A stretch of DNA of 53,552 bases from a virus. The notes beneath the pieces were generated by a model that worked only from the letters and a program-made list of their open reading frames with translations, was not told the DNA's origin and did not search any database. Positions 12,029 through 51,938 of this stretch are shown piece after piece (the stretch's first letter is position 1; every line of letters begins with the position of its first letter). The stretch is from IMG/VR virus record IMGVR_UViG_3300046656_000217, positions 1 through 53,552 of that record; one strand, written 5' to 3'. The translations under genes were made by a program, and so were the position numbers.

Positions 12029-12108
12029 CCCGGCCCGTCCTAGTTTCCCCGGTGCTATCGGCCGGGGAATTGTTGGGACGTGCCGATTTCCGGCCCGTTA
12101 ACTCTTGT

Positions 12109-12120
12109 GAGGGTCTGACG
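12109..12120 (+). promoter_or_regulatory. Shared translation leader, copy 1
   Basis: GAGGGTCTGACG directly before ATG 12121. GAGGG is the likely ribosome site; the following TCTGAC is conserved across eight genes in this block. Confidence 0.75.
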
Positions 12121-22919: not shown

Positions 22920-24466
22920 ACGACTGGCCCCACCAAACGAAAGCCGTCGCCGACGTCCTGGCCGCGATCGAGGCCAAGCATCGGCGGATCTGTGTGACGA
23001 GTCCGACGGGCGGCGGCAAGTCCCGGATCATGGGCTTGCTGGCCGAACACTTCCAAGATCAGGGTGTCGTTCTCTACACGAACCGCAAGCTACTGGTCAA
23101 CCAAACCTCGGGGGTGTTCTCCGGGTTTGACTTCGAACACGGGGTAAGGGCTGCTGGCCATGAAGAAAACAAGCACCACAAAGTCCAAGTCTCTTCGGTC
23201 CAGACCGAAGACGCCCGGGTCAACAAAGGGAAGACGTGGCAACTCCACGAAGCCAAGATCGTCCTTGTCGACGAAGCCCATCTCATCAAGGCCGATGTCG
23301 CCAAGGGGATCTTTGACAGTCACATTGAACGGGGTGCTACTATTGTCGGCTTCACCGCTACCCCGCTCGATCTCGAAGAACTCTACGATCACCTTATTGC
23401 CGCCGGGCGACCCTCCGAACTACGAGACTGTGGGGCCCTGGTCTCGGCGTCTCATTTCGGCCCCGACGAACCCGATCTCGCCGCCCTCAAGAAGCTCAAA
23501 AAGAAAATCCCCGCCGAAGGGGAAGAGTGGTCCGAGAACCAAGTCAAAGCCGCGATGATGAACCCCTCCCTGTTCGGTCGGGTGTGGGACTGGTTCGGCA
23601 AGCTGAATCCCGAGCGGAAGCCGTCCATCCTGTTCGCCCCCGGCACTCAGGAATCCCTCTGGTTCGCCGAGAAGTTCTTCCAGAACGGAGTCTCGGCCGC
23701 TCACCTGGCCGCGGGGCAAGTCTGGTTCAACGGCGAGTGGCTGCACGACCGCGGCAAGGGCGACGAGCAAGAGGCGAGACAGAAGGTGCTCGCCGTATCC
23801 AAGGCCGGGAAGTGTACCGTCCTCTGCAACCGGTTCCTCTTGCGGGAGGGGATCGACGCGCCTTGGCTCGAACACGGGATCTTCGCCACCATCTTCGGCA
23901 GCCTGCAACCCTACCTTCAGTCCGGTGGCCGTTTGCTGCGGTCGTCGTCTTCGACCGGAAAGACCGGGGCAACCATTCAGGACCACGGCGGGAACTGGTG
24001 GCGGCACGGCAGCCTCAACGCCGACCGTGAATGGGATCTGCACTACTCCGCGTCGATGGTCGCACAAATGCGGGCGGAACGGTTCCGGGAGAAGAAGGAG
24101 AAGGAACCCTGGCGGTGCCCGGGGTGCGGCCAGATCCGCACCGGGAAGACGTGCGAGTGCGGGTACGTCCTCGGCCCCAAGGCGAGCCGGCCGGTGGTGA
24201 CGATGGACGGCGACATGAAGGAGATGGTTGGGGACATTCATAGACCGCGCCGGGTGGATACGAGACTGGCCGGAGTGCAACTGTGGGAGAAGATGTACTT
24301 CCGGTCGCTCCGCGGGAAGGGGATCAAGTCGTTCGCTCAGGCTCGGGCTCTCTACGCCTACGAGAACAACTGGCTGTGGCCCGACAAACGGTGGCCGCTC
24401 ATGCCGATGTACGAAGAAGACTTCTACCGGCTGGTCCCCGACGTCCCTCGGGAGCGGTTGCGATGA
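22916..24466 (+). CDS. Superfamily 2 DEAH-box helicase
   Basis: 516 residues, ATG 22916 overlapping the previous stop. Motif I is TSPTGGGKS (28-36), motif II DEAH (119-122), motif III TATP (147-150), motif V REGIDAP (310-316), motif VI QSGGRLLRS (335-343). A zinc ribbon CPGC..CECG (401-416) follows, then a C-terminal domain rich in Trp/Tyr. This resembles restriction-type or phage DNA helicases such as RapA- and UvsW-like types. It probably unwinds or remodels branched DNA during replication or recombination. Confidence 0.85.
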   Translation: MNDWPHQTKAVADVLAAIEAKHRRICVTSPTGGGKSRIMGLLAEHFQDQGVVLYTNRKLLVNQTSGVFSGFDFEHGVRAAGHEENKHHKVQVSSVQTEDARVNKGKTWQLHEAKIVLVDEAHLIKADVAKGIFDSHIERGATIVGFTATPLDLEELYDHLIAAGRPSELRDCGALVSASHFGPDEPDLAALKKLKKKIPAEGEEWSENQVKAAMMNPSLFGRVWDWFGKLNPERKPSILFAPGTQESLWFAEKFFQNGVSAAHLAAGQVWFNGEWLHDRGKGDEQEARQKVLAVSKAGKCTVLCNRFLLREGIDAPWLEHGIFATIFGSLQPYLQSGGRLLRSSSSTGKTGATIQDHGGNWWRHGSLNADREWDLHYSASMVAQMRAERFREKKEKEPWRCPGCGQIRTGKTCECGYVLGPKASRPVVTMDGDMKEMVGDIHRPRRVDTRLAGVQLWEKMYFRSLRGKGIKSFAQARALYAYENNWLWPDKRWPLMPMYEEDFYRLVPDVPRERLR

Positions 24467-29601: not shown

Positions 29602-30030
29602 ATGACGAAGCCGAATTACGAGACCATCGTTTTGCAAGTCGCCAACGTCGCGGTCAGTGAAGCCATTGACCGGCGGAAGTTGCTGATCGCCCGGAATCAG
29701 GTCGAGATCTTGGCCGCGATGGAGATGATGTCCGGGAATCTGGTCGTCTACCTTCAGGCGTATCTCGCGGCCGGGGATCGTCAGCAAGTCGGGGAGGACA
29801 CGGTCACCTACCTTGCCGACTGGCGTCAATGGTTCAAGGCCCGGTGGTTCAACAACCGGATGCTGCGGTGGCTACTGCGGAAGTACCCGCTGCGACACAA
29901 GACGATCAAGGTGCCGACGGTGTGGATCACCCGGGTCTGCCCGCACTTGGCAATCCCTGTCGGCAGCAACAAGTTCGAAATCCTGAAGCCGCACTTCGAT
30001 CATTGCCTCACGAAAGACCAACCGCGATGA
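29602..30030 (+). CDS. Hypothetical basic protein
   Basis: 142 residues from ATG 29602 (AGAGGACGCGCCG upstream). The N-terminal half is helical (LQVANVAVSEAIDRRKLLIA). The C-terminal half is basic with aromatic residues (WFKARWFNNRMLRWLLRKYP). It could be membrane-associated or nucleic-acid-binding. The stop overlaps the recombinase start (ATGA). Confidence 0.6.
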   Translation: MTKPNYETIVLQVANVAVSEAIDRRKLLIARNQVEILAAMEMMSGNLVVYLQAYLAAGDRQQVGEDTVTYLADWRQWFKARWFNNRMLRWLLRKYPLRHKTIKVPTVWITRVCPHLAIPVGSNKFEILKPHFDHCLTKDQPR

Positions 30031-31094
30031 CCGAGCCCATCTACAACCAGCGGATCCGCCCCTTCACTACCCGGAGTCGGGCGGCGGACAAGCCGACCGG
30101 TACCCGGTGCTGGGGGTACATGCGGGTGAGCACCGACAAGCAAGTCGACGGGACGTCCCTCGAAAGCCAAGAACTCGACATTCGCCGCGAGTACGAGAAG
30201 TGGAAGAACACCCACACGATGATGGGCATTACGAAGGACGTCACCCCCGGCGGAAAGACCCGGTTCTGTGACCGGCAAGGCGGGCGGGAACTGCTCGGGA
30301 AGATGGTCCCCGGCGACGTGCTCATCATCTCCAAGGTCGACCGCTTCAGCCGGTCCGTGGTCGACGGGCTCAACGAGATGCGGGAGATCTGGCGGAAGGG
30401 GATCACGATCGTCTGTCTCGACATGGGCGGCGAGCCGGTGTCGTTCGGGGACAACGGCGAGATCCTGTTGTTCATGCTGCTCCTCGGGGCCCAAATGGAG
30501 AACAAGCGGCGCAGCGAGCGGTCGAAGGAATCCTGGGCCCGGGAGAAAGCGGCGGGGATCAAGCGGAAGCGAAGCCCGATCGCCAACCCGCCGTACGGGT
30601 ACGTGGGTGGGGTGATCGACTGGCACTGGCGGACGTTCGTTGTGCGATTACGCAACATGTTCGATTTCGCCTGCCGCAACCTCGGTTACTCGAAGTGCGA
30701 CACCCGGCACCTGAAGCTCGCCGAGAGGTACGGGCTGCTCTGGTGGAAGAGTTACAGCAAGACCGGGCCGAACGGTCGCCGGCCGGAAGCGATCTCGGCC
30801 GACTACTACCTGCGGTGGTTCCGGTGCGAAGACGAACTGTCCAAGACGCACCCGTTCGTGCTGAAGATCGAGACCCCGTGGGTGGAAGATTTCATCGCCG
30901 GTCGGCTCAAGCCACTGCCCAAACCAATAAACCCTTTCTTCAGTCCCATTAACTCCCCAGGAGAGAACGATGCTCTTGCAACAGTTAACGCCGACCGAAG
31001 CGGCCCGACAGATCCGGGAGAACCTACAGCGGGGGGAGGGCCGGGTGCAGACCTTCCCGGTCATGGTGCTCCCGGACAACACCCTGCACTCTGA
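30027..31094 (+). CDS. Serine recombinase / integrase
   Basis: 355 residues from ATG 30027. The resolvase N-terminal domain is clear: GYMRVSTDKQVDGTSLESQ with the catalytic Ser in YMRVST, then DRQGGRELLGKMVPGDVLII, KVDRFSRSVVDG and LLLGAQMENKRRSERSKE. The middle region includes RSPIANPPYGY, usual for serine recombinases. The last about 40 residues overlap the next gene (start 30970) and look non-conserved, so the true end may be near residue 315. It could integrate the genome at a bacterial site or invert DNA; no att site was identified. Confidence 0.8.
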   Translation: MTEPIYNQRIRPFTTRSRAADKPTGTRCWGYMRVSTDKQVDGTSLESQELDIRREYEKWKNTHTMMGITKDVTPGGKTRFCDRQGGRELLGKMVPGDVLIISKVDRFSRSVVDGLNEMREIWRKGITIVCLDMGGEPVSFGDNGEILLFMLLLGAQMENKRRSERSKESWAREKAAGIKRKRSPIANPPYGYVGGVIDWHWRTFVVRLRNMFDFACRNLGYSKCDTRHLKLAERYGLLWWKSYSKTGPNGRRPEAISADYYLRWFRCEDELSKTHPFVLKIETPWVEDFIAGRLKPLPKPINPFFSPINSPGENDALATVNADRSGPTDPGEPTAGGGPGADLPGHGAPGQHPAL

Positions 31095-32923: not shown

Positions 32924-33418
32924 ATGGCGGTCTTATTCGACAATCTGAAGGTCGGCGGCTGGTACGCCATCTTCGAGCACAAGGAACAGGAAGCCGAGCC
33001 CAATCCGTACGATGCGTTCAACCTGTTCGCCAGGGCGCCTAAACGGCAGCGGTGCGACGGGATGCCGTTCATGATCCGGGCGGCGTCCTTCCCGTTCATC
33101 ACCGGGGTTGGACTGAAGGGTGAATTCCTTGCGTTCGATTTCCGAGAAGTACAGTTCGTCTCTCTCGACAAGAGGTACGTCAACGAGTGGTACAAGGCGG
33201 TGGCGTCGGCCTCGGGCCAGTTACCGCAAGGCCAGAGTTGCTTAGACGTCGCCCGGAAACACCTGCGGAAGCTGAAAAAGAAGAAAGAGAAACCGGACCC
33301 GAACACCTGCCCGCGGTGCGGCAGCCGAATGATCCAGAAGTTGCGGGACGTCAAGGACGGGTGGCGAATCGCCTGCCGCGAGTGTGGGATGGACGCCGGG
33401 CCGGCACCGACAACCTAA
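32924..33418 (+). CDS. Small zinc-ribbon protein, end of rightward block
   Basis: 164 residues. The N-terminal about 115 are aromatic and beta-rich (MAVLFDNLKVGGWYAIFEHK); the C-terminal CPRCGSRMI and CRECGMD form a zinc ribbon (about residues 128-154) after a Lys-rich linker. The gene ends convergently with the giant ejection protein, overlapping its stop by four bases. No family is recognised. Confidence 0.65.
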   Translation: MAVLFDNLKVGGWYAIFEHKEQEAEPNPYDAFNLFARAPKRQRCDGMPFMIRAASFPFITGVGLKGEFLAFDFREVQFVSLDKRYVNEWYKAVASASGQLPQGQSCLDVARKHLRKLKKKKEKPDPNTCPRCGSRMIQKLRDVKDGWRIACRECGMDAGPAPTT

Positions 33419-36400
33419 CGCGCCGTCTGCTGCTCCAACTTGGCCCGGTCCTGCACCCGCTTGTCGGTCTCCTTCAGCAAGTCCAGCAAGTAACGAGTCG
33501 TCGGATCCAACTCGCCCCGGGTCTTCAACGGGGCGTACACTTCTTCCCGCGACTTGATCCCCGTGTTGCCCCGCAGTTCGTCCTTCACCAACTGCCGCGC
33601 GGCGAGATCCTGTTGGCGGGCGGTGTCAATGTCCGTGACGCGAACCCCGGTCCCCAGGTTGAACAGGGTCGACCCGATGCTCTTGCGCGGGTCGAAGAGG
33701 GTGTCGACGGTGTGCAGCGCCCGAGCGGCCGGCGAGTTCGACGCCAACTCGGTCGCCCCTCGGGCAATGTCGTCCGGGACGAGCCCGCCGAGCCCGAGCA
33801 CGGTGGACGGCTGAAGGTCTTCCAACTTCCGGCCCGAGTAAAGCTGGGTGCCGAACGCCTGCTCGAACGGGAGTTTGAAGAGCGGGTTCGCCTGACCGAT
33901 CCCCTGTTGGAAGGTGCGCTGGACGTCGCCCTTCAGGAACGAGCCGATCGTCTTCAGCGCCTCATCCTCGATCGGCAGACCGAACGACGAGATGTACCGC
34001 TGCTGTCCTTCGGGGGCCCCGGGGATCGGAACGCTCGCCCCCTCCCCCACGAAGGACGGGACGAACTGGCCGGGATCCCGGACGCCGCCGACGAGCCGGG
34101 TCGCCGCGGAGATCTGGCCGGGCTGGGTGACGAGATCTTCGAGGATCGGCGGGAGGTTCTTCCGGCTGAAGGCGTACCACGGGAACACCCGCTTCATGAT
34201 GTTCTTCTCGAACTGAGTCATGTCGGCGTAGTCGATCTGGTACTTCATCGTGGTCAGTTTCGCCTCGGCGGGCCCCATGTCGTGAAGCATGGCCCCCAAG
34301 AAGTGAGTGCCGCGGATCCAGTCCTCGGCCGTGTTGCCCATCTTCTCGCCCTGCTTGAACGGCAGGAACTCCGACCGCGAGCCCGAGCCCACCGGCCGGG
34401 CCAGACTCTCCAACGGGTTCAACTGCTGGAAGACCTTCCCCTTCTCGGGGATGAACCCGGCGCCGAACGTGGCGAGATCCTGTTTGAGCGGCCGGGGCTG
34501 CGCGGCGCCGACGTCCGGCAGACTGCCGGGGAGGAGTCCCGGCCGGCTGACCGCCTCGATCCCGCCGATCCGCTCCCCCACCTGGCCCGATCGGGTGAAG
34601 GCGACGTTGTTGGCGATCAACAGTTCCCGGAACTTCTTGGTCGCTTCCTCCGCGGTCTGGCCGGGGAACAGTTTGGTGATCGTCTCGTCCGACAGGGATC
34701 CGCCGCGGAGCACCCGGAACATGTCTTCGCCGGCCTGCTTCGAGAGCACGCCGGCCCGGCTCATGTTGAAGACGCCGGTCATGAGGTTCCGGACGTGGAA
34801 AGCCGGGAACGGGCTGGTCACGCCGCCCTTGAACAGACTGGCGAACCGATCCCACATGTCGACGACCGGCTTCAGCGACTCGGGCGTCGTCCACGCCTGC
34901 CCGATCCGGAAGAGATCCTTGGCCACGTCCTCGGGGATCGCCAGATCCTTGAGTTGGTTCGGGTTCACCCCGAGCCCGGCCGCGATGCGCTGGTACGACA
35001 CCGGCATCCGACCGCCGACCTTCTGGGTCATCCCGGCCTTCTCCAAGGCTTCCTTGAGCGGGACGGCTCGGACGCCGGCCTGTTGGAGTTGGGTGAGCGG
35101 CACGGCTTGCTGTGTGAGCCCGGTAATCATCGTCTCGCCCGACGCCACCGTCCGGGCCGACTCTAATTGCCTGGCCCGTGCATTCCCCAAGAAGTCGAAG
35201 TTGAACAACCCTTCCTGCCGGGTCTTGTCGGGGACCGCCTTCAGGTAGTCGGCCAGCTTCTTCGCCTGCTTGTTGGCCCCCTTCCACGCCGCGTCGCCCC
35301 ACGGCGTACCGACCCACGCCGCCGGCATACCCTGCGCGGCCGAGCGGCCGGTGAGACTCTGGACGATGTCACTCTGCACCTGAAGGTCCGACTTGAACGC
35401 GGTCCGCCCGGCGCCGGCCATCGTGGGATCCTTGATTAGCCCCTCGATCCCGGCCGTGCCGCCGGGGATGCCGCGGAACATCGGCGCGCGAGCCTCTTGG
35501 AACTGACTGCTCCCGGAGAGACGGGTCGAGATCGCCCGGCCGACGTCGCCCTCTGGGTTCAACGCGGTCCGGGGGAAGTAGTCCGTCGGGAACACCCCGG
35601 CCGGGAACGGCTCGGCCAGACCGGCAGCCTTCGCCTGCTTGTTCGCCAAGAGAGCCCACTGAGGCGTGTCGGTCGCCTCTTTCGAGACGACGCCGGCTGC
35701 CCGCTCGGCGCCGAGCGTCGCCCGGGTCTCGGTCGCCACCCGGTCGCCGATCGCAAGGATGTCTTGAACATCCTGCTGGTTGAACCCGAGCCCGAGCAAC
35801 TTCCCTTGGGCGTCTTGGGTGTACCCCTCGGCGTGCTGGGTGAGAGCCGTCCCGAAGTCGAGCCGCTTGTCGACCGGGATCTGCTTGGCGTAGTCGTCGA
35901 GCGGGGTGAGAGCCGACGCGAAGCGGGCTTCCGCGTCCGCGCGGCCCTGCTTCAAGAGGGGCGTGAACTGGTTCTCGGCGAGGGTCTGGCCCACCCGACC
36001 GCCGGCCTCGGCAACGCGTGTATCGAACAACTGCCGCATTCCGAGATAAGCCTTGTCCCCGAGATTGCCGAGAGCGGTCACCGGGTTGGTCCCGATCGCT
36101 CGCTGGATCGGTCCGCCGATGTACTTCTCGGCCCCGAGTGCCGCTTGGGTCGCCGGGTAGGTCACCGGCTTCCAGAAGTTCTCGGCGATCGCCTGGCCGG
36201 TCGCACCGGTGCCGACGATCTTCCGCGGGGCCCCGAAGAGGGTTTCCTGAAGCGGGATCCCGAAGTCCATCAAGCCGGCCTGCCCCTGGGCGATCCGCTG
36301 GGACAGTTTCGGGGCGAGCGTCCCGGCCCGCGCCGCCGCCTTCCCGCCCTGGGTGAGCGGCCCGATGCCGGCGTAGGTGAGCGGGTCGGTCGCAAGCTCG

Positions 36401-36804
36401 GTCAGAAAGCCGGCTGCCTGGTTCTCTAACGAGTCGTCGCCGCGGGTGGTGATCCCCAAGCTCGCGTTGATGTCGGACCCTTGGACCGCATTCCTCTCCT
36501 GGGTGAGCCCGATCGTGTCCGATCCCGGGAGGAACGACAGGAGTTCCGACGCCGGGGTGCTCCCGCCGGCCAAGAGGTTGAGCCCCGCGCGGACGGACCG
36601 GGCCGGCTTGTCGACCAGCTTGCCGAGATAGGAAACGCCGCCTAGCGATTGGTCGAGCATCCGGGAGAGGAAGTCCGTCTGCTCCTCGGGGGACTGGCCG
36701 GTGCCGGTGTTGTTCGGATCGCCAACCTGCTGCCGCTGGTAGGCGGCTCGACGGTAGGCGTCGGCCGCGACGGGGTCGAGGTAGTCAAGGAAGTCGGTCG
36801 GCAT
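33415..36804 (-). CDS. Giant internal virion (ejection) protein
   Basis: 1129 residues. An N-terminal module (about 49-150: LVDKPARSVRAGLNLL, ASELLSFLPGSDTIGLTQER) is shared with the next two genes. The large middle is helical and Ala/Gly-rich. A late region (MKRVFPWYAFSRKNLPPILE) recalls large phage internal proteins. The C-terminus ends TTRYLLDLLKETDKRVQDRA, a motif also seen in the 368-residue protein. Size, position after tail genes and helix content fit a podovirus ejection protein that enters the host with the DNA. No enzymatic domain was recognised. Confidence 0.7.
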   Translation of the reverse strand: MPTDFLDYLDPVAADAYRRAAYQRQQVGDPNNTGTGQSPEEQTDFLSRMLDQSLGGVSYLGKLVDKPARSVRAGLNLLAGGSTPASELLSFLPGSDTIGLTQERNAVQGSDINASLGITTRGDDSLENQAAGFLTELATDPLTYAGIGPLTQGGKAAARAGTLAPKLSQRIAQGQAGLMDFGIPLQETLFGAPRKIVGTGATGQAIAENFWKPVTYPATQAALGAEKYIGGPIQRAIGTNPVTALGNLGDKAYLGMRQLFDTRVAEAGGRVGQTLAENQFTPLLKQGRADAEARFASALTPLDDYAKQIPVDKRLDFGTALTQHAEGYTQDAQGKLLGLGFNQQDVQDILAIGDRVATETRATLGAERAAGVVSKEATDTPQWALLANKQAKAAGLAEPFPAGVFPTDYFPRTALNPEGDVGRAISTRLSGSSQFQEARAPMFRGIPGGTAGIEGLIKDPTMAGAGRTAFKSDLQVQSDIVQSLTGRSAAQGMPAAWVGTPWGDAAWKGANKQAKKLADYLKAVPDKTRQEGLFNFDFLGNARARQLESARTVASGETMITGLTQQAVPLTQLQQAGVRAVPLKEALEKAGMTQKVGGRMPVSYQRIAAGLGVNPNQLKDLAIPEDVAKDLFRIGQAWTTPESLKPVVDMWDRFASLFKGGVTSPFPAFHVRNLMTGVFNMSRAGVLSKQAGEDMFRVLRGGSLSDETITKLFPGQTAEEATKKFRELLIANNVAFTRSGQVGERIGGIEAVSRPGLLPGSLPDVGAAQPRPLKQDLATFGAGFIPEKGKVFQQLNPLESLARPVGSGSRSEFLPFKQGEKMGNTAEDWIRGTHFLGAMLHDMGPAEAKLTTMKYQIDYADMTQFEKNIMKRVFPWYAFSRKNLPPILEDLVTQPGQISAATRLVGGVRDPGQFVPSFVGEGASVPIPGAPEGQQRYISSFGLPIEDEALKTIGSFLKGDVQRTFQQGIGQANPLFKLPFEQAFGTQLYSGRKLEDLQPSTVLGLGGLVPDDIARGATELASNSPAARALHTVDTLFDPRKSIGSTLFNLGTGVRVTDIDTARQQDLAARQLVKDELRGNTGIKSREEVYAPLKTRGELDPTTRYLLDLLKETDKRVQDRAKLEQQTAR

Positions 36805-36831
36805 GAGATCACCCCCGGGGATGGGGAGATC

Positions 36832-37938
36832 TTACCGCTGTTGAGAGGTTTCCGGGATACCGAGAGTGGATCCAAGCTGCATACCCGACCGGCCGAGCCG
36901 TTTCTGGTACTGCGGGGCCGACTGCCCGATCGCCAGCGCCTTCCGCATTTCTTCCTGCCCGCCCAACAGGTCGAGGAGGTACCGGGTCATCCGGTCCGGT
37001 TCCTGCACGGCCACCGACGGCGCCATCTGGCCGGCGAACGCGGGGATCGGCTGGTTCCGGGCTGCCATCGACGCGAACGGGGCGTCGTGCGTCGTCACCG
37101 CCCCCGGGTCGATCACCACCGGTCGGCCCTGGTACATGCCGACGTTGCCGGCGTGCCTGTCGAAGAAGTCGAGCCCGCGGGTGGCCATGTCCTGCTGCAT
37201 CCCGTGGTAGGCGTCGCGGACGCCCGGCATGTTCACAAGGGGAGTCGACGTCGACTCGCCGAAGGCCGGGGCGAACGGCGTGCGCTCGACGCGAAGGGCG
37301 TTCTTGTACCCGCCGCTGCCGGCGATGTCCGCCGTGCGGGTCGCGGGGAGGACGGCTTGGTCGATCGGCCGGGTTTCGCCACCGAGCGGGGAGAAGGACA
37401 TTCGAGACACGTCACCGCCGGGTGACCGGAACGCGACGGCTTCCGCGCCGCTGCCGAGATACTTGCTCCCTTCCGGGATCTCCTGCAACGCCTTCTCGAA
37501 CCCCGGGTGATTGGAGAGGGTGAGGAACTTGTCCCGGCCGAACTCCGGAAGGCTTTGGAAGAGTTCGGACCGCGTCGTCGCGTACCCGGGTCCGCGGGCG
37601 GCTGCCGCCGCTTCCGCCCCCTTGCCGAGTAACCGACCGCCGAGCCGGCCGGCGAAACCGCCGAGATACGTCGTCGGATCGGTCAAGATGCCGGTCGCGA
37701 GCCCGGCCAGTTCGTCGCCCGTCTCCGAACCAGTCGAGCCGATATGCCGCTTGAACAGGTCCGTACTCGAAATCGCGTTCTGCTGGTGGGTGGTCCCCAG
37801 CGTGTCGGAGAACGGGAGGAACGAAAAGAGTTCGGACGGGTCCGTGCCGCCGCCGCCCAACATGTCGAGCCCGGCCCGAGCCGCGCGGCCCGGCTTGTCG
37901 AGCACGTCACCGATCCAGCCGAGTGCTTCATCGAACAT
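36832..37938 (-). CDS. Ejection-type protein with kinase-like domain
   Basis: 368 residues. Residues 1-95 repeat the shared module (MFDEALGWIGDVLDKPGRAA, ELFSFLPFSDTLGTT, DELAGLATGILTDPT). Residues 157-281 look like a protein-kinase-like fold: Gly-rich loop LGSGAEAVAF (161-170), catalytic loop DRHAGNVG (260-267), metal site VVIDPGAV (274-281). The usual beta3 Lys is not obvious; an Arg (VSRMSF) is near. The C-terminus carries MTRYLLDLL like the giant protein. It could phosphorylate, or otherwise bind nucleotide to act on, a host target on entry; activity is inferred. Confidence 0.7.
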   Translation of the reverse strand: MFDEALGWIGDVLDKPGRAARAGLDMLGGGGTDPSELFSFLPFSDTLGTTHQQNAISSTDLFKRHIGSTGSETGDELAGLATGILTDPTTYLGGFAGRLGGRLLGKGAEAAAAARGPGYATTRSELFQSLPEFGRDKFLTLSNHPGFEKALQEIPEGSKYLGSGAEAVAFRSPGGDVSRMSFSPLGGETRPIDQAVLPATRTADIAGSGGYKNALRVERTPFAPAFGESTSTPLVNMPGVRDAYHGMQQDMATRGLDFFDRHAGNVGMYQGRPVVIDPGAVTTHDAPFASMAARNQPIPAFAGQMAPSVAVQEPDRMTRYLLDLLGGQEEMRKALAIGQSAPQYQKRLGRSGMQLGSTLGIPETSQQR

Positions 37939-39316
37939 TGGGGAATCCCTCTCTCGCCGTCTGGTAACTCGCGAGCATCCCGAGCCGGGATGCCGCCGCC
38001 CGCGCCATGGACGGGGCCGAGACGTTGGCCGGGATCGGTGCTTCCGGTGGTGCGATCCACGGCGAGTAGATCTGGTTCTGGTCGAAGACGACCCACTGAC
38101 TACCGGTCGATCCTTCGTGCGGAGCGATCACCGAGTCGTACCCGTGTTCCTTCAGGGCAGCCAGGTACTTCTCGGCCGTGCCGTACGGCGCGTCGGGATG
38201 CGGCTTCGAAAACCGTTCCTTGAGAATGTCGTACGGTCGGTTCGGATCTGGCAATCCCATACCTTCTTGGAGTTTGGTGAGGACCGGGTGCAAGTTCTCC
38301 TCACCGTATCCAGTTCCCCGTAGGTCGAGCGGCTTGCGAACGTCGAGGTATTGCGTTCGCACGCCGGCCGGGTTTTTTAACATGTCGTCGAGTTGCTTCA
38401 TCGCGATCGAACCACGCATCTCCGGGTCGTGCTTTTTTCTGAGATCGTCGATTTGGTAGTAGAGATTTCTCCTGCGGGAGTCCAACAGACCCTCTTGTTC
38501 GGCATGGGCCGGATCGATCGTCGAAGAATACCCGTACCCGGAATCGTGTGGGGTTTTGACGAACTTGGGATTCTCGTAAAGGTACCGCAAATCGTCGGTC
38601 GTGACGCGGTGTTCATGCCAAAGCCGATTCACCGTGTTGTTGGCTTCCTCTGCCGCCGCGTCCATTGCTTCACGCGATCCGCCGAACGCTTCGAGTCCGG
38701 GCTTCGCCTTCTTCAACATGTAATCGACTTGTTCAGACGATGGTCCGGCGTAGCTGCTGGCAAGCTCGGCGTCCGGGGTGACGTAGTACCCGGGGCCGAG
38801 TGTTGAAGCGTCCGCCGTCCCGGCCCTGGCGAAGTCCACCGGCCCTTCGAACGCGGTCTTGGTCCCGTGGTACATCTTGACCGGGTTGCCCGCCGCGTCC
38901 TTGGCGAACGTCTGGCCGGCGATCTCGGCCGGCATGGCACCCTTGGCCAACAGGGATTCCCGGAGTGCGTTGACCGCCTTGGCGCTGGCGATCGCCTCTT
39001 CGTTGGTCTTCACCGCCCTGGAAGCCACCCGGGCGGCTTTCCCGGCCGCACCGAGCCCGATGAGGTTGGTCGGGTCGAGGGCCATTTCCAGCCCGAACCC
39101 GGCAGCCTGGCCGCTGGCGTCCTCGGGCGACAAACCGAACCAGTCGTGTGCCAGATTGGCACCCGAGACCCGGCGGGACGGGTCGGTCAGACCCATAGTG
39201 TCGGAAAACGGGACAAGTGCCGCCAATTCGTCGGGATTTCCGCCAAGTAGACCCCGGAAAGCCCGGCCGGGCTTGTCCAAGGCGTCGGAAAGGTATGAGA
39301 GGGCTTCGTCGAACAC
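37928..39316 (-). CDS. Ejection-type protein with ADP-ribosyltransferase-like domain
   Basis: 462 residues. The shared module occupies residues 1-90 (MFDEALSYLSDALDKPGRAF, ELAALVPFSDTMGLTDPSRR). From about 145 it has an ART-like pattern: PVKMYHGTKTAFEGPVDFAR (His of YHGT at 150), then GPGYYVTPDAELASSYAG (GYY at 176-178) and, near residues 405-430, GYDSVIAP and WVVFDQNQIYSPW, which resemble ART domains of phage polyvalent proteins. Phage T4 carries virion ARTs (Alt) that modify host RNA polymerase; a similar role is inferred. It overlaps the kinase-like gene by 11 bases. Confidence 0.75.
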   Translation of the reverse strand: MFDEALSYLSDALDKPGRAFRGLLGGNPDELAALVPFSDTMGLTDPSRRVSGANLAHDWFGLSPEDASGQAAGFGLEMALDPTNLIGLGAAGKAARVASRAVKTNEEAIASAKAVNALRESLLAKGAMPAEIAGQTFAKDAAGNPVKMYHGTKTAFEGPVDFARAGTADASTLGPGYYVTPDAELASSYAGPSSEQVDYMLKKAKPGLEAFGGSREAMDAAAEEANNTVNRLWHEHRVTTDDLRYLYENPKFVKTPHDSGYGYSSTIDPAHAEQEGLLDSRRRNLYYQIDDLRKKHDPEMRGSIAMKQLDDMLKNPAGVRTQYLDVRKPLDLRGTGYGEENLHPVLTKLQEGMGLPDPNRPYDILKERFSKPHPDAPYGTAEKYLAALKEHGYDSVIAPHEGSTGSQWVVFDQNQIYSPWIAPPEAPIPANVSAPSMARAAASRLGMLASYQTAREGFPNVR

Positions 39317-39408: not shown

Positions 39409-40890
39409 CTAACGAAGGCCGAGACCGAACGCCTTGTAGACGGACGGGTATTTCGACCGCCGGAGTTCCCGGGCCCGGTCGAGTTCGGCCTGGGACTGGC
39501 TGAACGGGTTGAGCGGGTTCGACTCGTTGCCGCCGGCCCCGAACGGACTGGCTGCCCCGATGTCGAGTTCCGGTCCCTCTTTCAACTGCACCTTCCGGTA
39601 GGGGTCCGAGCCAACCCCGAGCGGGATCCTGCCTTCCTTGGCCAGATAGTTGAACGGCGTACCGGCCAGCGTGAACGTGCCCGGGATCTGGCCCTGTTGG
39701 TTGAGCGGAACCCCCCACTGAGTAGGTCCGTTCTTATTCGCCGACCGGTGCGCGGACATTTCGTCGATCGCGGCTTGCTGAAGGAGTGCCTTCTTGACGT
39801 TCGCTCCGGCCGGGCTGGCTTGGATCCGATTCAGAATGGCGTCCATTTCGTCGGGTGCCAGGTTGGCATCGGCCATCGCCTTCAGGAGCGGAGAGGCGTT
39901 CTGCTGCTGGAAGTCCTGAACGCCACCCTTGGCACCGGGGATCATCTTGCGGTCGGCCCCGAGCCCGCCGCCCATCTGCATATCGGCCGGCAGGACACCG
40001 GCATTTGACGAGAGGAACTGTTCGATCTTCGACAACTGCGCGAGCGACGGCTGGCCCGGGGCCGGAGCACCGCCCTTGTCGACCGTCATGGACTGGTTCG
40101 GTCCACCCAGGTTGAGGAAGTTCCCCGCCACCGAACTACCCGGGAACGCGCTCCGCACTTCCTTCGAGGCGGCGAGAGCCTGTTGAATGCTGGTCGCGTC
40201 CAGCCGGCCGGATCCGCCGAGCGCCCCGAGCAACGTGAGCAACGTCTGGCCCTGCATCGCGTCCGGGTGGAACTTCAGCGAGGCTTCCTTCAGCCGGGCT
40301 TCGTTGTTCATCTGGGCCACGTCGCGGGCGGTCTGGCCCTGCATCGTCTCGGGCAGGATCCCGACCTGGGCCCCGAGCATCCGGTTCGCCGCGTCGCCGC
40401 CCATGTTCGGGGCGTTCGCCTGCTGGTCGAGGAAGAGTTGCCGGATCTGATCCTTCGGCGAGCCGCCGGTCGCACCCCCAACGCCCGCCGGCAGGGTCGA
40501 GCCCGCGTTCGCCATCTTGGTCCCCCAGCCCGAGTACCAGTTCCCGGGCTCGGCCGTGCCGTTCAACGTCTGGACGGATCCACCCAAAGCCGGCGACGGC
40601 GCCAGCCCCGGCAGATCGCCTCGGACGTCGTTCTGAGCCTGCGCGGTCTGATCCGGCACGTTCCGCGGCATCCCGGCGACGCCGGAGTAGGCGCCGCCGC
40701 CCCACAAGCCGCCCGGCAGCATGGACGCGGCCATCGCCCCGGTACCGGCGATCGAGGCCGGGGCGTTGAGCCCGGGACCGAAACCCGGGACGCCGAGCCC
40801 GGCGGCAGCCATCCGCTTCTTCCGCTCCTCTTCGTCGTCCGGCTGCATGAAGCCGGCGTACGGGTTGTAACCTTCGGGTCGCGGGTCCAT
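39409..40890 (-). CDS. Putative internal virion protein
   Basis: 493 residues. Low-complexity Gly/Ala/Pro-rich start (MDPRPEGYNPYAGFMQPDDE) and long helical stretches (EEERKKRMAAA; ADANLAPDEMDAILNRIQAS), ending in AELDRARELRRSKYPSVYKA. It lies between a smaller internal protein and the ART-type gene, without the shared 90-residue module. It fits a podovirus internal core protein by position and composition. No catalytic motif was recognised. Confidence 0.55.
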   Translation of the reverse strand: MDPRPEGYNPYAGFMQPDDEEERKKRMAAAGLGVPGFGPGLNAPASIAGTGAMAASMLPGGLWGGGAYSGVAGMPRNVPDQTAQAQNDVRGDLPGLAPSPALGGSVQTLNGTAEPGNWYSGWGTKMANAGSTLPAGVGGATGGSPKDQIRQLFLDQQANAPNMGGDAANRMLGAQVGILPETMQGQTARDVAQMNNEARLKEASLKFHPDAMQGQTLLTLLGALGGSGRLDATSIQQALAASKEVRSAFPGSSVAGNFLNLGGPNQSMTVDKGGAPAPGQPSLAQLSKIEQFLSSNAGVLPADMQMGGGLGADRKMIPGAKGGVQDFQQQNASPLLKAMADANLAPDEMDAILNRIQASPAGANVKKALLQQAAIDEMSAHRSANKNGPTQWGVPLNQQGQIPGTFTLAGTPFNYLAKEGRIPLGVGSDPYRKVQLKEGPELDIGAASPFGAGGNESNPLNPFSQSQAELDRARELRRSKYPSVYKAFGLGLR

Positions 40891-40931: not shown

Positions 40932-41555
40932 TTACACAAGGCCGGCGAGTTGAGCCAGCAACCCTTGGACGCCCTGCATCTGGGTCTGCCGGCGGCGGAT
41001 GTCGGTGTCTTCGCCCTGGGCCCACTGGTTCTCGGCCAAGGCGTCGGTCCGGTACGTCGAGTCGGCGTTCGCCTGGGCGTACTGCATCGGGAGTTCCCGG
41101 GTGGTCCGGGCGTTCTCCCCGATGTTGGCGATGCCGAGTTGCGTCATCTGCGCCTGCATGGCCGGGCTCGACCCGCCGAACCCGCGGCCGGCACTCGACG
41201 AGCCGAGTTGCCGCATGAGCGTCTGGTACCGGGCATCGTTCCCGGCCACCCCCGAGTTGACTTGCTGCTGGATCTGGTCCGGGGTGAAGATCGGCCCCCG
41301 GGTGATCGACGGCTGCGGCTTGGTCGCCCCGCCGACCTGTCCGAACTGCCCGAGCATCGACGTCGCGTACGGGAAGAGTTGGTTGAAGGCGCCCTGCTTG
41401 GCGGCGAACTTCGCCTTGTCCAAGTCCATCGTGTCGCCAAATTCCTTCTTCCTCTGCTGCAACGCCATGTAGGCGTCCGGATCCGAGACCGGCGTGTTCG
41501 AATAACCCATCCGGGCCCCGAGCGCCGGATTCGCCCCTTGAAACAACATCGGCAT
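40932..41555 (-). CDS. Putative internal virion protein (small)
   Basis: 207 residues (MPMLFQGANPALGARMGYSN). Gln/Gly-rich with helices (MALQQRKKEFGDTMDLDKAK; FAAKQGAFNQLFPYATSMLG) and a C-terminal coiled region (TDIRRRQTQMQGVQGLLAQL). Length and Gln/Ala content resemble small T7-type internal proteins such as gp14, but no direct match is claimed. The plus-strand gene starts 59 bases beyond its own start. Confidence 0.55.
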   Translation of the reverse strand: MPMLFQGANPALGARMGYSNTPVSDPDAYMALQQRKKEFGDTMDLDKAKFAAKQGAFNQLFPYATSMLGQFGQVGGATKPQPSITRGPIFTPDQIQQQVNSGVAGNDARYQTLMRQLGSSSAGRGFGGSSPAMQAQMTQLGIANIGENARTTRELPMQYAQANADSTYRTDALAENQWAQGEDTDIRRRQTQMQGVQGLLAQLAGLV

Positions 41556-42370: not shown

Positions 42371-42915
42371 GGCAGGTAAATGGGGACCAGCATTCGGAGC
42401 GAAGTGATCGCGTTCCCGGCACCGATCGCGCACCAGACGAGACAGTGTGTTCCCGCGGGGATCGTCTCGGCCGGGTCGATCTGCCCTTGGAAGCACGGGA
42501 AGGTTCCGAGCGGCGTCCCGCTCGTCGGATCGGTGATCCAACAGAGTACGTTGTAAGTCTGCCCGCTCCCGGAAACCACGATGCCGTAGAGCATGACCGG
42601 GAACTGCGGGGCGAGCGCGGCCGGCGGGGGCGTCGACGGGAACGTCGTCTGGGCCGGCGGCAGCCCGCCCCCTCCCCCGCCGCCACCGCCGGAGAACGGC
42701 GGCACGGTCGCACCCGGGAATGGAACGATGGTAAGGGCCGGGACGTCCGGCGCCGTCTGGCGGATGGTGAGCGGCCCGTCGACCGTCTGCCCGTCGGGGT
42801 GCTCGGCCCCGAAGATCGAGATGAGGTTTTCGGCCAACCGGCGTGCGCCACCCGGCCCCGGGTACTTCTCCCGGAGAATGCTGTCGAGTTCTTCGTCGGT
42901 GAGGATCGACGCCAT
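42367..42915 (-). CDS. Putative tail accessory protein
   Basis: 182 residues from ATG 42915 (GGGTA-ATGG context; the stop of the large nozzle-like gene overlaps the ATG). A helical start (MASILTDEELDSILREKYPG) and a long Gly run (GGGGGGGG) precede a beta-rich C-terminal part (FPVMLYGIVVSGSGQTYNVL). The Gly run looks like a flexible hinge. Probably virion-attached; function is unknown. Confidence 0.6.
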   Translation of the reverse strand: MASILTDEELDSILREKYPGPGGARRLAENLISIFGAEHPDGQTVDGPLTIRQTAPDVPALTIVPFPGATVPPFSGGGGGGGGGLPPAQTTFPSTPPPAALAPQFPVMLYGIVVSGSGQTYNVLCWITDPTSGTPLGTFPCFQGQIDPAETIPAGTHCLVWCAIGAGNAITSLRMLVPIYLP

Positions 42916-44981
42916 TACCCGTTCGCCCCGTTGACCAGAACGCTTCCGATCTGAACCTGCTCTTCGTTCGACACTCCGCTCATGACGAGCCGCGCCGTGC
43001 GGCCCATCGCACCGGCCACCGAGCCTTCCCGCCAAGAGTTCTGCTGGACGAGCGTGTAACCGTCCACGCTGTCGAGCAAGATGTCTTGGCCCTGGTCGCC
43101 GATCTTCGCCTGCACGTCGGTCCGGAAGCCGCGGTCGATGTCCCACGCCATCTTCACCGGGTCCGAGAAGTCGGGGGCGAACCCGACCCGGGCCTTGTTT
43201 GGCACCCGGTTCGGCTGGAACTCCATCTCGACACTCCGGGCCATGTCGGCTTCACCCGGCACCCACCGCAGCCGTTGACTCGAATACGTCCAGACGATTC
43301 CGCCGAGACAATACCGCGACGTCTCGTCGGGCCGGACCCGCCACGGGGTATTGATGACCAGCCGCGTCGTCGTCCGCTCGACGACGTACGCCGACTGGCC
43401 CCGGCCCTTCCCCTCGGTGATCGACACCGGCGAGTTGACGCACCCGGCCGCGAATCGGGCGTTGGCGTCGGTGATGCTGACGTCGTCGGCCGACGTGACG
43501 CTGCCGCGGATGGTCCCGCCCTGGGGCGAGCCGTCGATCGCCGCACCGAGCGGGGCGTACACCCGACCGCCCGTCGACCCGACGTAATACTGCTCGATCC
43601 CCTCGGCCACGGTCCCCACCCGCCCGCCGATCCGCGAGAGCACGCTGGATGCCGCCCGGAACGGGAGTGATTCGGTCCAGATCTTCCCCAGCTTGTAGGC
43701 GAAGCAGATCATGTCCCGGGGAACGTAGTCGCCGGCCAAGGCCACGAACCAGCGGACAACCTCTTCGTTCGGCGAGTGGCACGCATGGAAGTACCGGCCC
43801 GCCGCCCAATTAATCTTCTTCCCGGTCCCCGGCTGGTTATTGAACATGTCCTGAATCGGCGTCGAGATGAGTTCACCCTGGTCGTCACCGCGGAAGGCGT
43901 GAATCCCACCGGTGTCCATCATGTAGCACGTCTCGTCCACGATCGCCCACGACCGGTTGTTGACGCACCCGATGCTCGCCGCCAGGAAGATCCGACCGTC
44001 GTTCGCCGGGTCGCTCCGGCAAATGAACCGGTAGAGATGCCGGGTTTTGACGATGTACAGGTAAGACCCGTAGTTGAAGGCGCCGACCACCCGGTCACCG
44101 TCCTCGGGGAGAACGAGCACATTCACCGGGTTCCACGCCTCGGGCTTGTCCGGCTCGGAGAACTGGAAGGCGTTGGCCTCGGCCGGGACGGGCCGCACCG
44201 AATACTCGCCCCACGGGTTCGACGTGCCGCCGTAGACTTCGGACAGGAAGATCTGTTGGGTCGTCTCGTTGACGCTGGTGATCGTGTAGTTCTTCGGGGC
44301 CCCGGTGACGTACAGGATGCGGCCGACGAACGTCTCCTTCCATTTCGTGTTGTACCCCTGGACGATCTGAGACCCGAGCGTGACCGAGCACGACCCCCGC
44401 TGGTACGGCTCGATGCCCAACAGGTACATTCGGTTCTGGTGCCAGATCAAGAACGGCTTGTAGGACGGTGGCACCCCGTTTTCGATCGCTGCTTGATCGA
44501 TGTCGACCGACTCCTGAGTCGAGAGATCCGGATCTGTACGAGTGCTGGTGAAGGTCGTTGAAACAATGTCGGTCGTATCGATGTCGACATAGGCGATGTT
44601 CCTCGTCTCGCCGGTAAGGGGATCGACCGACCCGACCGACCCGTTGGTATTGCGGATGATCTGACGCCCGACGACGTCGTTCATGAAGAAGGGGACCGGC
44701 ACGTTGATGTAGTCGATCTGCCCGTTCGCCGAAGCGCTGGCCGGCGCGGAGATCGGGGAGAGGTTGGAGAACTGCCCGCGGCTGTTGACGAACCGAACCC
44801 ACCCGTAGTACGTCCCGGTGATCGAGCCCGCCCCGGACGCCGACAGGTCGAGGGCCCCGACCGGGGCGACGACGCCGGCCGGCGCCGCCGTGGACGACAA
44901 GCCGTCCCAGACAAGAACCTGCTCGATGCCGTTGGCGATGAAGACGTTCCCGTCCGACGAACTCTGTGCGAACGATTCCAT
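42915..44981 (-). CDS. Tail nozzle-like protein (beta-propeller type)
   Basis: 688 residues. The sequence is made of repeated beta segments of about 50 residues, with blades recognisable by W/Y and D-x-D/GD motifs (GSYLYIVKTRHLYRFICRSD; TCYMMDTGGIHAFRGDDQGE; GGRVYAPLGAAIDGSPQGGT). Large beta-propeller nozzle proteins close the tail of many podoviruses and sit where this one does, before the ejection genes. Size fits gp12-type (T7) nozzle proteins (about 600-800 residues). The exact family is unproven. Confidence 0.6.
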   Translation of the reverse strand: MESFAQSSSDGNVFIANGIEQVLVWDGLSSTAAPAGVVAPVGALDLSASGAGSITGTYYGWVRFVNSRGQFSNLSPISAPASASANGQIDYINVPVPFFMNDVVGRQIIRNTNGSVGSVDPLTGETRNIAYVDIDTTDIVSTTFTSTRTDPDLSTQESVDIDQAAIENGVPPSYKPFLIWHQNRMYLLGIEPYQRGSCSVTLGSQIVQGYNTKWKETFVGRILYVTGAPKNYTITSVNETTQQIFLSEVYGGTSNPWGEYSVRPVPAEANAFQFSEPDKPEAWNPVNVLVLPEDGDRVVGAFNYGSYLYIVKTRHLYRFICRSDPANDGRIFLAASIGCVNNRSWAIVDETCYMMDTGGIHAFRGDDQGELISTPIQDMFNNQPGTGKKINWAAGRYFHACHSPNEEVVRWFVALAGDYVPRDMICFAYKLGKIWTESLPFRAASSVLSRIGGRVGTVAEGIEQYYVGSTGGRVYAPLGAAIDGSPQGGTIRGSVTSADDVSITDANARFAAGCVNSPVSITEGKGRGQSAYVVERTTTRLVINTPWRVRPDETSRYCLGGIVWTYSSQRLRWVPGEADMARSVEMEFQPNRVPNKARVGFAPDFSDPVKMAWDIDRGFRTDVQAKIGDQGQDILLDSVDGYTLVQQNSWREGSVAGAMGRTARLVMSGVSNEEQVQIGSVLVNGANG

Positions 44982-44983
44982 GC

Positions 44984-46102
44984 CTACCTCTGATACCGGT
45001 TGCCGACCAGCACGTTCGGCTCGTCGGCCAGGAACAGGTTGAGGATCGTGCCGACGTCGATGTTGTTGGCGGTGCTGTACTGTTCGACGAAGGTAACGAA
45101 CTGGTCAACGTCGATCACGTTCTGGGTCAGACTCGGGATCGACTCGACCATGTTGAGGAACTGGAAGACGTTGATGTCGTTGATCTGGGCGAACCCGCCG
45201 CCGCCCGAACTCGGGATGTCGCCGCCGGTCGCGGCCCCGGCGGTGAGGACGGTCCCCAGGACGAACGGGCTGTCCCCGATAAAGGTCTGGTCGACGACGA
45301 TGTCGTTGCCGGTGATGTAGGGCGGCGGTGCCCCGGTACCGCCTCTGGTCTTCTGCGGGATCTGCACCATCGCGATCGGGTCGTGCGTCGTCGTCCACGC
45401 CACCATCTCGGGGGCGGACAGGGCTCGGTTGAACACGGCCACCCACCACACCGATCCGTTGAGCCCGAACGTCACCCCGGCCCCGCCGCCGGTCGAGAAG
45501 CGGCCGGTCGAGGCGAACCCGGCGCTCGACGTGTTGTGGCTCGCCCCGGCCGACGTGTTGCTCGCGACTAAGACCCCGCTCTTGTAGAGCCGCATCGTCC
45601 CGGCACCGCTCGGATCGTACGAGCCCCCGAGAGTGAATTCGTTGTTGACCGATCCCGCCACGTCCCCGTCGCTGATGAACGTCCCGCCGCCGTTGCCGAC
45701 GAACCACCCGCACCCGGACGCGGCGCTAATCTGAAGCGTGCAACCATCCCCGGAAGAGACGTCGTGTGTCCCCCATAGCTGGCCGGCGGTATCGACCGAC
45801 GTCGGAAGGCAGCGGGCGATCACGGTGACCGGCCCCAGGAACTTGCCCGTCCAAGAGGTATCCCACTGGATGTAGTCGCCGTTCGACGCGGAGAAGATCG
45901 ACCCGTCGTAGCCGGTGATCGGCGAGAACGACCGGGCGAGAATCTTGGACGTGATGTCGGAACCCTTCTGGATCAGGTTCCCGGTCTCGATCGTGTCGCT
46001 GGCCTTGAGGGCGTACCGGATTAACGAGAACATCCGTAGCCCCGCCGTCCACTGATTCGTGGCGACTTGGAACGGGCGGCGGATCTGGGACGGTGCGGCC
46101 AT
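44984..46102 (-). CDS. Tail-fibre-type protein with LamG-like domain
   Basis: 372 residues from ATG 46102 (the longer frame to 46252 is not protein-like). Residues about 60-230 look like a concanavalin/LamG-type jellyroll: SNGDYIQWDTSWTGKFLGPV, GWFVGNGGGTFISDGDVAGS, MRLYKSGVLVASNTSA and VWWVAVFNRALSAPEMVAW. Such domains bind sugars or cell-surface polymers. The C-terminus (VDVDQFVTFVEQYSTANNID) is helical. Probably part of the receptor-binding apparatus. It overlaps the upstream gene by one base. Confidence 0.65.
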   Translation of the reverse strand: MAAPSQIRRPFQVATNQWTAGLRMFSLIRYALKASDTIETGNLIQKGSDITSKILARSFSPITGYDGSIFSASNGDYIQWDTSWTGKFLGPVTVIARCLPTSVDTAGQLWGTHDVSSGDGCTLQISAASGCGWFVGNGGGTFISDGDVAGSVNNEFTLGGSYDPSGAGTMRLYKSGVLVASNTSAGASHNTSSAGFASTGRFSTGGGAGVTFGLNGSVWWVAVFNRALSAPEMVAWTTTHDPIAMVQIPQKTRGGTGAPPPYITGNDIVVDQTFIGDSPFVLGTVLTAGAATGGDIPSSGGGGFAQINDINVFQFLNMVESIPSLTQNVIDVDQFVTFVEQYSTANNIDVGTILNLFLADEPNVLVGNRYQR

Positions 46103-46674
46103 TACTGGATCTCGTCGACCAGCGGGATGAAGACTTGGTTGGCTTCGACGTCGTCGCCTTCGAACGAGTCGCCGCTGTTGTTGACCAGAACGAGTTGCCC
46201 GTACCGGCTCGACGGGACGAAGTAGTTGTTCACGACGCCGTTCTGGACGCAAGCCCCGTCGTGCGTCCTGAGAGAGCCGATGAAGTCACACATGATGATG
46301 AATTCGCCGAGCGTCACCCCTCCCAAGGCCCCGTCGGGCGCCGCCCCGTCCACGCCTGAATTGCCGGCCACGTTGCCGTTGGCGGCGGTCACGCTCGTCG
46401 AGGGGGCCCAATAGTAGTCAATGTGGCCGGACGCGCCGGGCGTTTCGCCCGTGAAGTCGACGCACCCGAGCACCCGGAACCCGGCGGCGAACGTCGCCCC
46501 GAGATCCGCCTTGTCCGATTGCCGGCCGGCGGCGTCCGCGACGGATGCGAGCGTGATGAGCACGTTCGTCGGCGAACCGATCGTCCAGTCCGTCGCCGGG
46601 TCGGCCGGGCTGAACGAGCCCGAGACACAGAACCGGAGTTCCGTCCCGAGTTTGCGAAGGATTTCATTGGCCAC
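46102..46674 (-). CDS. Phage structural protein
   Basis: 190 residues (MANEILRKLGTELRFCVSGS). Beta-rich with Gly/Ala/Thr, including FRVLGCVDFTGETPGASGHI and IMCDFIGSLRTHDGACVQNG. This type (small virion protein between fibre and head-tail genes) is frequent in podoviruses. A fibre-base role is likely; no specific match. Confidence 0.55.
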   Translation of the reverse strand: MANEILRKLGTELRFCVSGSFSPADPATDWTIGSPTNVLITLASVADAAGRQSDKADLGATFAAGFRVLGCVDFTGETPGASGHIDYYWAPSTSVTAANGNVAGNSGVDGAAPDGALGGVTLGEFIIMCDFIGSLRTHDGACVQNGVVNNYFVPSSRYGQLVLVNNSGDSFEGDDVEANQVFIPLVDEIQ

Positions 46675-50765: not shown

Positions 50766-51938
50766 TCAACTGGTGGAGTACGGGAGAGAGGGAACGTCGA
50801 AGATGGTCAAGAGCGGACGCCACGGGGAACACGCCTTGTACCCGGCGTACCGGTCGTCGGCGTCCTTGGCCTGGTTGAGACACCGTTGCCAGTCCGCGGC
50901 CTCCCCGGCGATCGCCGGCACCCGGGCCATCGTCCGGTACTGCCGCTGGCACTCCCGGAACACGTACTCGCGGGTGGCGTTGGGCTCGACGTCCAAGAGG
51001 GAGGAGATCACGTACTTCCCGCGGTTGACCGATACCGTGGGGGCGGTCTGAAGGACGAGCGTCGTCCCGTCGGTGACCGAATCGATCACCCCCTCGAAGT
51101 AGGGGGGATTGTCGCCTTCGATGCCGGTCGGGAGGGCCGTGTTGCCCCCCTTGCTCACCCGCAGCACCGTCCCGGCCATTCCCGATTCGAACGCGGTCCC
51201 GTTGCCGTTGACCGTCGAGTTCCCGGAAACGATCGTCACGTCGCCGTCGACCACCTTCCGGTACTGCGGTTTGACGAGATCCGCCTTGTAGCTGAACAGG
51301 ATCGAATATTCGCCGTTCGGGGCCGGGTAGAACCGCGCCGCCTGCCGCTGCGGGACGGTCAGATCTTGGGTGACCGTGAAGATGAACGGGTAGCTCTGAT
51401 TCAGGTAGTAGTCCCGGCCGTACGCCCATTGCGCGATCGGGACGTATTCGAGTTTCTGGCCCGACGGCTGGACGATCGCGTTGAACGCCTCGAAGTAGTC
51501 GGGCGGAAGCGGGTAGAGATCCCGCGGCATCTGGTACGCCTGCGGGTCGGTGATGTCGGCCCCGGGGTTGTTGAACTCGGCGAGTTGAATGACCGACGTC
51601 GAGAACCACTTCTGGACTTGGTACGTCTTCATGGCGATCTGGACGTACCCGTACGCGGCCCACGTCGGGAAGGATCCGCCGGTCAAGGTGATCTGCCGCT
51701 CGCACGTCGCCCCGCCGGTGTGGTCGTACGTGACGGTCCCGGTCGAGTATCCGGTGTTCGTCGGGATCGAAAACATCCGCTTGTAGAACGACCAATCGTG
51801 CATCCGCACGATCCCCAGGTACGCGGCAACCGCCGCCCGGTTCGCGTTCTGGGTGTTCTGCGTGTTCGGATTCTGGCCCGAGTACGCAATGATCGAGTCG
51901 ACCAGATCGCAGTAAGCCATCAGGGAATTTGCGGGCAC
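50766..51938 (-). CDS. Head-tail connector / tail tubular-like protein
   Basis: 390 residues from GTG 51938 (GAGGA six bases upstream). N-terminal helices (YCDLVDSIIAYSGQNPNTQN) are followed by a beta region (YVQIAMKTYQVQKWFSTSVI) and late VFRECQRQYRTMARVPAIAG. The order portal - zinc-ribbon - this gene - fibre resembles podovirus gp11-type tail tube (gatekeeper) proteins, which are commonly 200-400 residues. The role is inferred from order. Confidence 0.55.
   Translation of the reverse strand: MPANSLMAYCDLVDSIIAYSGQNPNTQNTQNANRAAVAAYLGIVRMHDWSFYKRMFSIPTNTGYSTGTVTYDHTGGATCERQITLTGGSFPTWAAYGYVQIAMKTYQVQKWFSTSVIQLAEFNNPGADITDPQAYQMPRDLYPLPPDYFEAFNAIVQPSGQKLEYVPIAQWAYGRDYYLNQSYPFIFTVTQDLTVPQRQAARFYPAPNGEYSILFSYKADLVKPQYRKVVDGDVTIVSGNSTVNGNGTAFESGMAGTVLRVSKGGNTALPTGIEGDNPPYFEGVIDSVTDGTTLVLQTAPTVSVNRGKYVISSLLDVEPNATREYVFRECQRQYRTMARVPAIAGEAADWQRCLNQAKDADDRYAGYKACSPWRPLLTIFDVPSLPYSTS

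Follow-up and report, generated by a model that had tools for sequence, protein, structure and literature searches.

A shared N-terminal module on a giant late phage protein and on smaller late proteins with varied enzyme-like payloads

Why should a giant phage protein, which by its position looks like an ejection protein, begin in much the same way as two smaller, enzyme-like neighbors? The question is raised by IMG/VR viral record IMGVR_UViG_3300046656_000217 (53,552 bp, 63% G+C), the whole of which was analysed and is here called the window. Three adjacent genes of its minus-strand late block encode a giant protein, a kinase-like protein and an ADP-ribosyltransferase (ART) protein, and we confirmed that a module of about 100 amino acids is common to them. 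In the reading that we favor and hold to be somewhat probable, the module is a docking element borrowed by small effector enzymes for loading and for delivery with the DNA. The features on which the argument turns are the following.

33415..36804 (-): giant late protein of 1129 amino acids whose position suggests an ejection protein; carries the module at residues 49-160 and has homologues in ctEqG8, Shocker, DS1 and many IMG/VR records
36832..37938 (-): kinase-like module protein, 368 amino acids; full-length orthologue in record G087
37928..39316 (-): ART module protein, 462 amino acids, Pfam ART-PolyVal; no counterpart in the syntenic G087
36325..36660 (-): shared module of the giant (residues 49-160), from BLASTP, alignment and whole-record search
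37660..37938 (-): shared module of the kinase-like protein (residues 1-93), from BLASTP and alignment; AlphaFold2 model all-helical
39014..39316 (-): shared module of the ART protein (residues 1-101), from BLASTP and alignment
37084..37491 (-): kinase-like payload core (residues about 150-285), from the LGSGAEA loop to DRHAGN ... VIDPG; motif kept in G087
38027..38899 (-): ART-PolyVal payload (residues about 140-430; best Pfam stretch 140-206), from Pfam; a homologue in G063 has module and ART
36964..36987 (-): TRYLLDLL in the kinase-like protein (residues 318-325); weak
33475..33498 (-): TRYLLDLL in the giant (residues 1103-1110); weak

The first-pass annotation of this DNA had claimed that the giant, kinase-like and ART proteins share an N-terminal module, and both the open reading frames and the similarity are as it described them. 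In composition-adjusted BLASTP, residues 49-146 of the giant matched residues 1-93 of the kinase-like protein with 44% identity (E 2e-19), and residues 49-160 matched residues 1-101 of the ART protein with 35% identity (E 1e-11). The two smaller proteins matched each other, over residues 1-115 and 1-113, respectively, with 38% identity (E 4e-18). Twenty-three columns are invariant across the three copies and include the motifs named in the annotation, that is, DKPxRxxR, SDTxGxT (within ExxxxPxSDTxGxT) and AG...DP. BLASTP of the neighboring late proteins p207 and p493 against the module gave nothing beyond chance, and a search of the whole record found exactly three module copies. Identity among these copies at third codon positions is only 0.44-0.49, indicating that they diverged long ago; a recent duplication of the N-terminus of the giant is thus ruled out for the window.

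The module itself has no match in Pfam, PHROG or the PDB. The annotation had also called for a structure, and this was obtained in part: an AlphaFold2 model built from 26 sequences is all-helical, with a mean predicted local distance difference test (pLDDT) score of 76.5 and the best values at residues 1-60, and it matched nothing in the PDB. Compared with viral structures, the model gave a single match, to a protein of 1303 amino acids (E 0.002, template modelling score 0.63).

Neither tblastn against a phage collection nor scans of viral contigs with single queries found a close homologue of the module, and motif scans were therefore used. The best-conserved segment of the module, expressed as GFxx[DE]x3DPxTY, matched at least 119 stretches across IMG/VR and stands at the start of long late proteins in more than 100 contigs. 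In the loci that were inspected the pattern lies in the N-terminal part of open reading frames, the complete ones of 443 to 3056 amino acids and mostly longer than 1000. Homologues of the giant with the module were also found in Podoviridae sp. ctEqG8, Microbacterium phage Shocker, where the module is divergent, and Cellulosimicrobium phage DS1. A module profile search detected a single copy in 48 of 50 records. The shortest complete frame, of 443 amino acids (L045, 828-2156 (-)), has the broader DPxTY module and is far shorter than the other carriers outside the subfamily with the PFSDT version. A genome-collection scan with the stringent PFSDT pattern found no carriers, and hence no integrated prophage with that pattern.

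What follows the module in the two smaller proteins of the window had been described as enzyme-like, a description that holds for one of them by profile and for the other at the level of motifs. The ART protein scores 41.3 bits with Pfam ART-PolyVal, for which the cut-off is 31.2. The 368-residue protein has a G-loop-like LGSGAEA followed by D-x-H-x-GN ... VIDxG, and the GxGAEA loop and the latter motif are kept in its G087 orthologue (44% identity over the full length, E 2e-89); these we take to be typical of phosphotransferase active sites. This protein has no match in Pfam, PHROG or the PDB, and Kinase-PolyVal (PF18762) gave no match at E <= 10 in G000, G087, G059, G004 and G063. Since the assignment comes from motifs without a profile match, we call the protein kinase-like and not a kinase. 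The structure model of the whole protein is poor (pLDDT 39).

The annotation had further pointed to similar C-terminal tails. The octapeptide TRYLLDLL is indeed identical between the giant (residues 1103-1110 of 1129) and the kinase-like protein (318-325 of 368), with different codons, and a match of this kind was obtained in only 2 of 2000 shuffles. The copy in the kinase-like protein lies in a C-terminal stretch conserved in the G087 orthologue; because this tail is simply conserved in its own orthologue, a shared tail as a second module is not established.

Proteins combining the module with other C-terminal enzymes, which the annotation had suggested looking for in other phages, do exist. 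The records closest to the window in the motif scans were searched in full with module profiles, and 31 of them gave a strong match, making with the window a subfamily of 32 records, some of which are partial or near-duplicate. Profile E-values reach 1e-46 in unrelated contigs. At least two module proteins occur in 12 of the 32; in G065 both are giants. The small module proteins bear four kinds of payload, besides those of unassigned type. An ART-PolyVal payload homologous to that of the window follows the module in G063, in a frame of 718 amino acids with a shorter gene inside. In G062 (L170, 3030-5327 (+)), a module protein of 766 amino acids has an ART domain of the exoenzyme type (ADPrib_exo_Tox) and, further on, a HELGH motif. 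Kinase-like payloads were found in G004, G059 and G087, most clearly in the last, while G004 and G059 share an N-lobe-like part. The fourth kind is a zincin-like HExxHG family conserved in G055, G067, G057 and G054, which has no Pfam match and is read as a metallopeptidase by its motif alone.

One of these proteins combines parts related to two others. G054 and G055 have zincin-like payloads with 47% identity (E 4e-51), and the first half of the G054 module belongs to a Gly/Ala-rich subtype shared not with G055 but with G059, in its kinase-like protein (47% identity over 120 amino acids, E 1e-22). In whole-protein alignments the homology to G055 starts at residue 77 and that to G059 ends at residue 107, and the switch therefore lies inside the module. 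The same zincin-like payload is thus joined to two subtypes of the module, and zincin-like and kinase-like payloads can both follow a single subtype.

Gene positions tell a similar story; five further late genes of the window are listed first.

50766..51938 (-): p390, conserved late landmark
42915..44981 (-): p688, conserved late landmark, with a weak PHROG match to an internal virion protein
40932..41555 (-): p207, small late protein heading the putative ejection cassette, without the module
39409..40890 (-): p493, medium-sized late protein, encoded upstream of the module genes and lacking the module
1987-3120: major head protein, in the minus-strand late block

Profile searches with p390 and p688 showed that the late gene order is conserved across the phages of the subfamily, and relative to it the small module genes occupy three places. 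Just upstream of p688 are a kinase-like gene in G004 (with one small open reading frame between), an ART gene in G063 (adjacent) and a gene with an unassigned payload in G059 (adjacent), so that the p390-p688 interval holds a kinase-like gene in one phage and an ART gene in another. Directly before the giant are the ART and kinase-like genes of the window, kinase-like genes in G059 and G087, the ART and HExxH gene of G062 and an unassigned one in G001. The third place, upstream of p390, is taken by the HExxHG genes of G055, G067 and G057. G087 is syntenic with the window through p390, p688, p207, p493, the kinase-like gene and the giant, with 34-60% identity; its kinase-like gene directly follows p493, and the ART gene, which in the window shares 11 bp with the start of the kinase-like gene, is absent. 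Together with the recombinant module protein of G054, these shared slots support exchange, or gain and loss, of payloads between phages, as would be expected of the swappable enzyme domains behind a common module that the annotation had proposed.

The arrangement small, medium, giant (p207, p493 and the giant), with which the structural block ends, is also found in podovirus ctEqG8. The ejection proteins gp7, gp20 and gp16 of P22 and gp14, gp15 and gp16 of T7 are encoded in the same order. The sequences have no detectable relation to these, however, and in the window enzyme-bearing module proteins stand between the medium and giant genes. The giant matches nothing in Pfam or PHROG, and neither it nor p207 or p493 has a Pfam or PHROG match to an ejection protein.

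Based on these data, we propose that the helical module of about 100 amino acids is an N-terminal element of giant ejection-type late proteins, which one subfamily of phages may reuse as a tag on smaller late proteins with exchangeable host-modifying enzymes (ART, kinase-like and zincin-like). Through the module, its carriers would probably all dock to one partner within the head or ejection assembly; the portal, an internal core protein and the giant itself are candidates. Once loaded into the virion in this way, they would leave with the giant and the DNA and act catalytically on proteins of the host ahead of phage gene expression. Such packaging, ejection and action on the host are inferred from late-gene position, the cassette-like order and the precedent of T4 Alt, discussed below. 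To a broader version, in which a folded "ejection address" is ancestral to the giants of many phages and one subfamily delivers a polymorphic set of effectors combinatorially from recurrent late-gene slots, we give an even chance.

Several observations weigh against this proposal. The small module genes upstream of p390 are distant from the giant. Module identity to the giant of the same phage is 0.338, against 0.319 to other giants (permutation p 0.07), a marginal closeness that does not, therefore, show phage-specific lock-and-key matching of partners and that also leaves a recent within-genome duplication of the N-terminus of the giant unsupported in general. No cultured close relative turned up, and virion placement is read from gene position and order. 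Moreover, the kinase and zincin assignments are motif-level only.

Other explanations would account for part of the same evidence. The module could have mainly a structural or membrane-acting role in the ejection conduit, or mediate oligomerisation, with the small proteins as extra conduit subunits and their enzymes acting in the envelope or on the subunits. The module is always on the giant and in most phages is there alone; it is all-helical, and two Gly/Ala-rich variants reach a hydropathy of 1.7-1.8 over 19 residues, all of which would suit such an element. The copies of the window, however, have low hydropathy (0.81-0.86), ART and kinase-like payloads are easier to read as acting on cytoplasmic proteins of the host, and a cargo gene missing from a syntenic relative, as the ART gene is from G087, is therefore not a core part of the conduit. 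We regard this explanation as unlikely, although it is the most serious of the competitors. Still less probable, in our view, is that the small proteins are late enzymes serving the producing cell, in maturation or in superinfection control, which the module tethers to assembling particles without any delivery. The direct evidence is late-gene position, and peptidases of the zincin-like type could serve to process further proteins of the virion, a role already suggested for polyvalent proteins (PMC5512222). Nevertheless, T4 Alt, an earlier example of an ART whose gene lies next to virion genes, is injected (PMC5512222), and a purely intracellular role needs no N-terminus in common with a giant ejection-type protein.

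The annotation itself had named generic internal-protein similarity, not required for packaging, as fatal to its claim. The late proteins of the window are in fact rich in Ala and Gly, but E-values down to 2e-19, the invariant columns, the module-free p207 and p493 and the profile matches in unrelated contigs rule out late-protein composition as the source of the similarity, and we give this explanation practically no credence.

Three known systems resemble the one described here. Polyvalent proteins are predicted to be virion-borne and co-injected, with ART, kinase and zincin or peptidase domains, and to be encoded near late genes (Iyer et al. 2017, PMC5512222). The ART payload of the window belongs by its ART-PolyVal match to a domain family of this class, its gene lies near late virion genes (p390, p688, p207, p493 and the major head protein), and the late location, predicted virion inclusion and ART-PolyVal, kinase and zincin-type activities are alike. 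Polyvalent proteins, however, combine many activities in one large polypeptide, at least two disparate domains being their hallmark, whereas here separate small proteins carry mostly one enzyme each and share their module with the giant; among the three module proteins of the window, Pfam recognises an enzyme domain, a single one, only in the ART protein. Two disparate domains, ART and HExxH, would be present in the G062 protein, and one Verrucomicrobium locus has small open reading frames with such domains beside a large one (PMC5512222).

In T4, the internal proteins and Alt, an ART, are directed to the head by a common N-terminal capsid-targeting sequence, which also allows foreign proteins to be packaged (PMC5694885, PMC5512222). 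The likeness lies in an N-terminal element shared by several proteins that include an ART. In T4 this element is a propeptide of 10-20 residues removed by the prohead protease (PMC5694885), and in both length and position it differs from a helical domain of about 100 residues that also occurs at residue 49 of the giant. MuF polymorphic toxins of temperate phages likewise have a phage-structural N-terminal domain before variable toxins (PMC5576092), and so resemble a module followed by exchangeable C-terminal enzymes; here, by contrast, one phage has several module proteins, the module is shared with a giant late protein, and the module proteins have no Pfam match to MuF. The module system works like a combination of the three, but departs from the definition of each. 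The annotation had not known the arrangement to be described for this family. The general idea of co-injected late enzymes had already been published (PMC5512222); a limited and partial literature search gave no account of the module, or of individual small proteins that have it in common, which is weak evidence of novelty.

Other genes of the window deserve brief mention. The protein p605 (48741-50558 (-)) has a Peptidase_S11 (D-Ala-D-Ala carboxypeptidase) domain at residues 112-266; G087 keeps only its first 59 residues (68% identity), followed at once by a p177 homologue, and the enzyme part therefore appears to have been added, in one lineage, to a short late gene. A weak match to a concanavalin A-like lectin/glucanase domain (Laminin_G_3) in p422 (44984-46252 (-)), which recurs in a gene of G004 judged by eye to be similarly placed, suggests that p422 is possibly a host-binding tail protein. 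On the plus strand are DUF932, YqaJ-type recombinase, ResIII/DEAD-type helicase and serine-resolvase domains (12052-13506, 20834-21457, 22889-24466 and 29829-31094 (+), respectively).

If the module does load and deliver the proteins that carry it, it would offer an N-terminal handle for recognising injected phage effectors, whatever enzyme follows. Such a handle would span many uncultured phages whose giants carry no annotation. It would also represent, besides the short targeting peptide of T4, a second and structurally different solution for choosing which proteins travel with the DNA.

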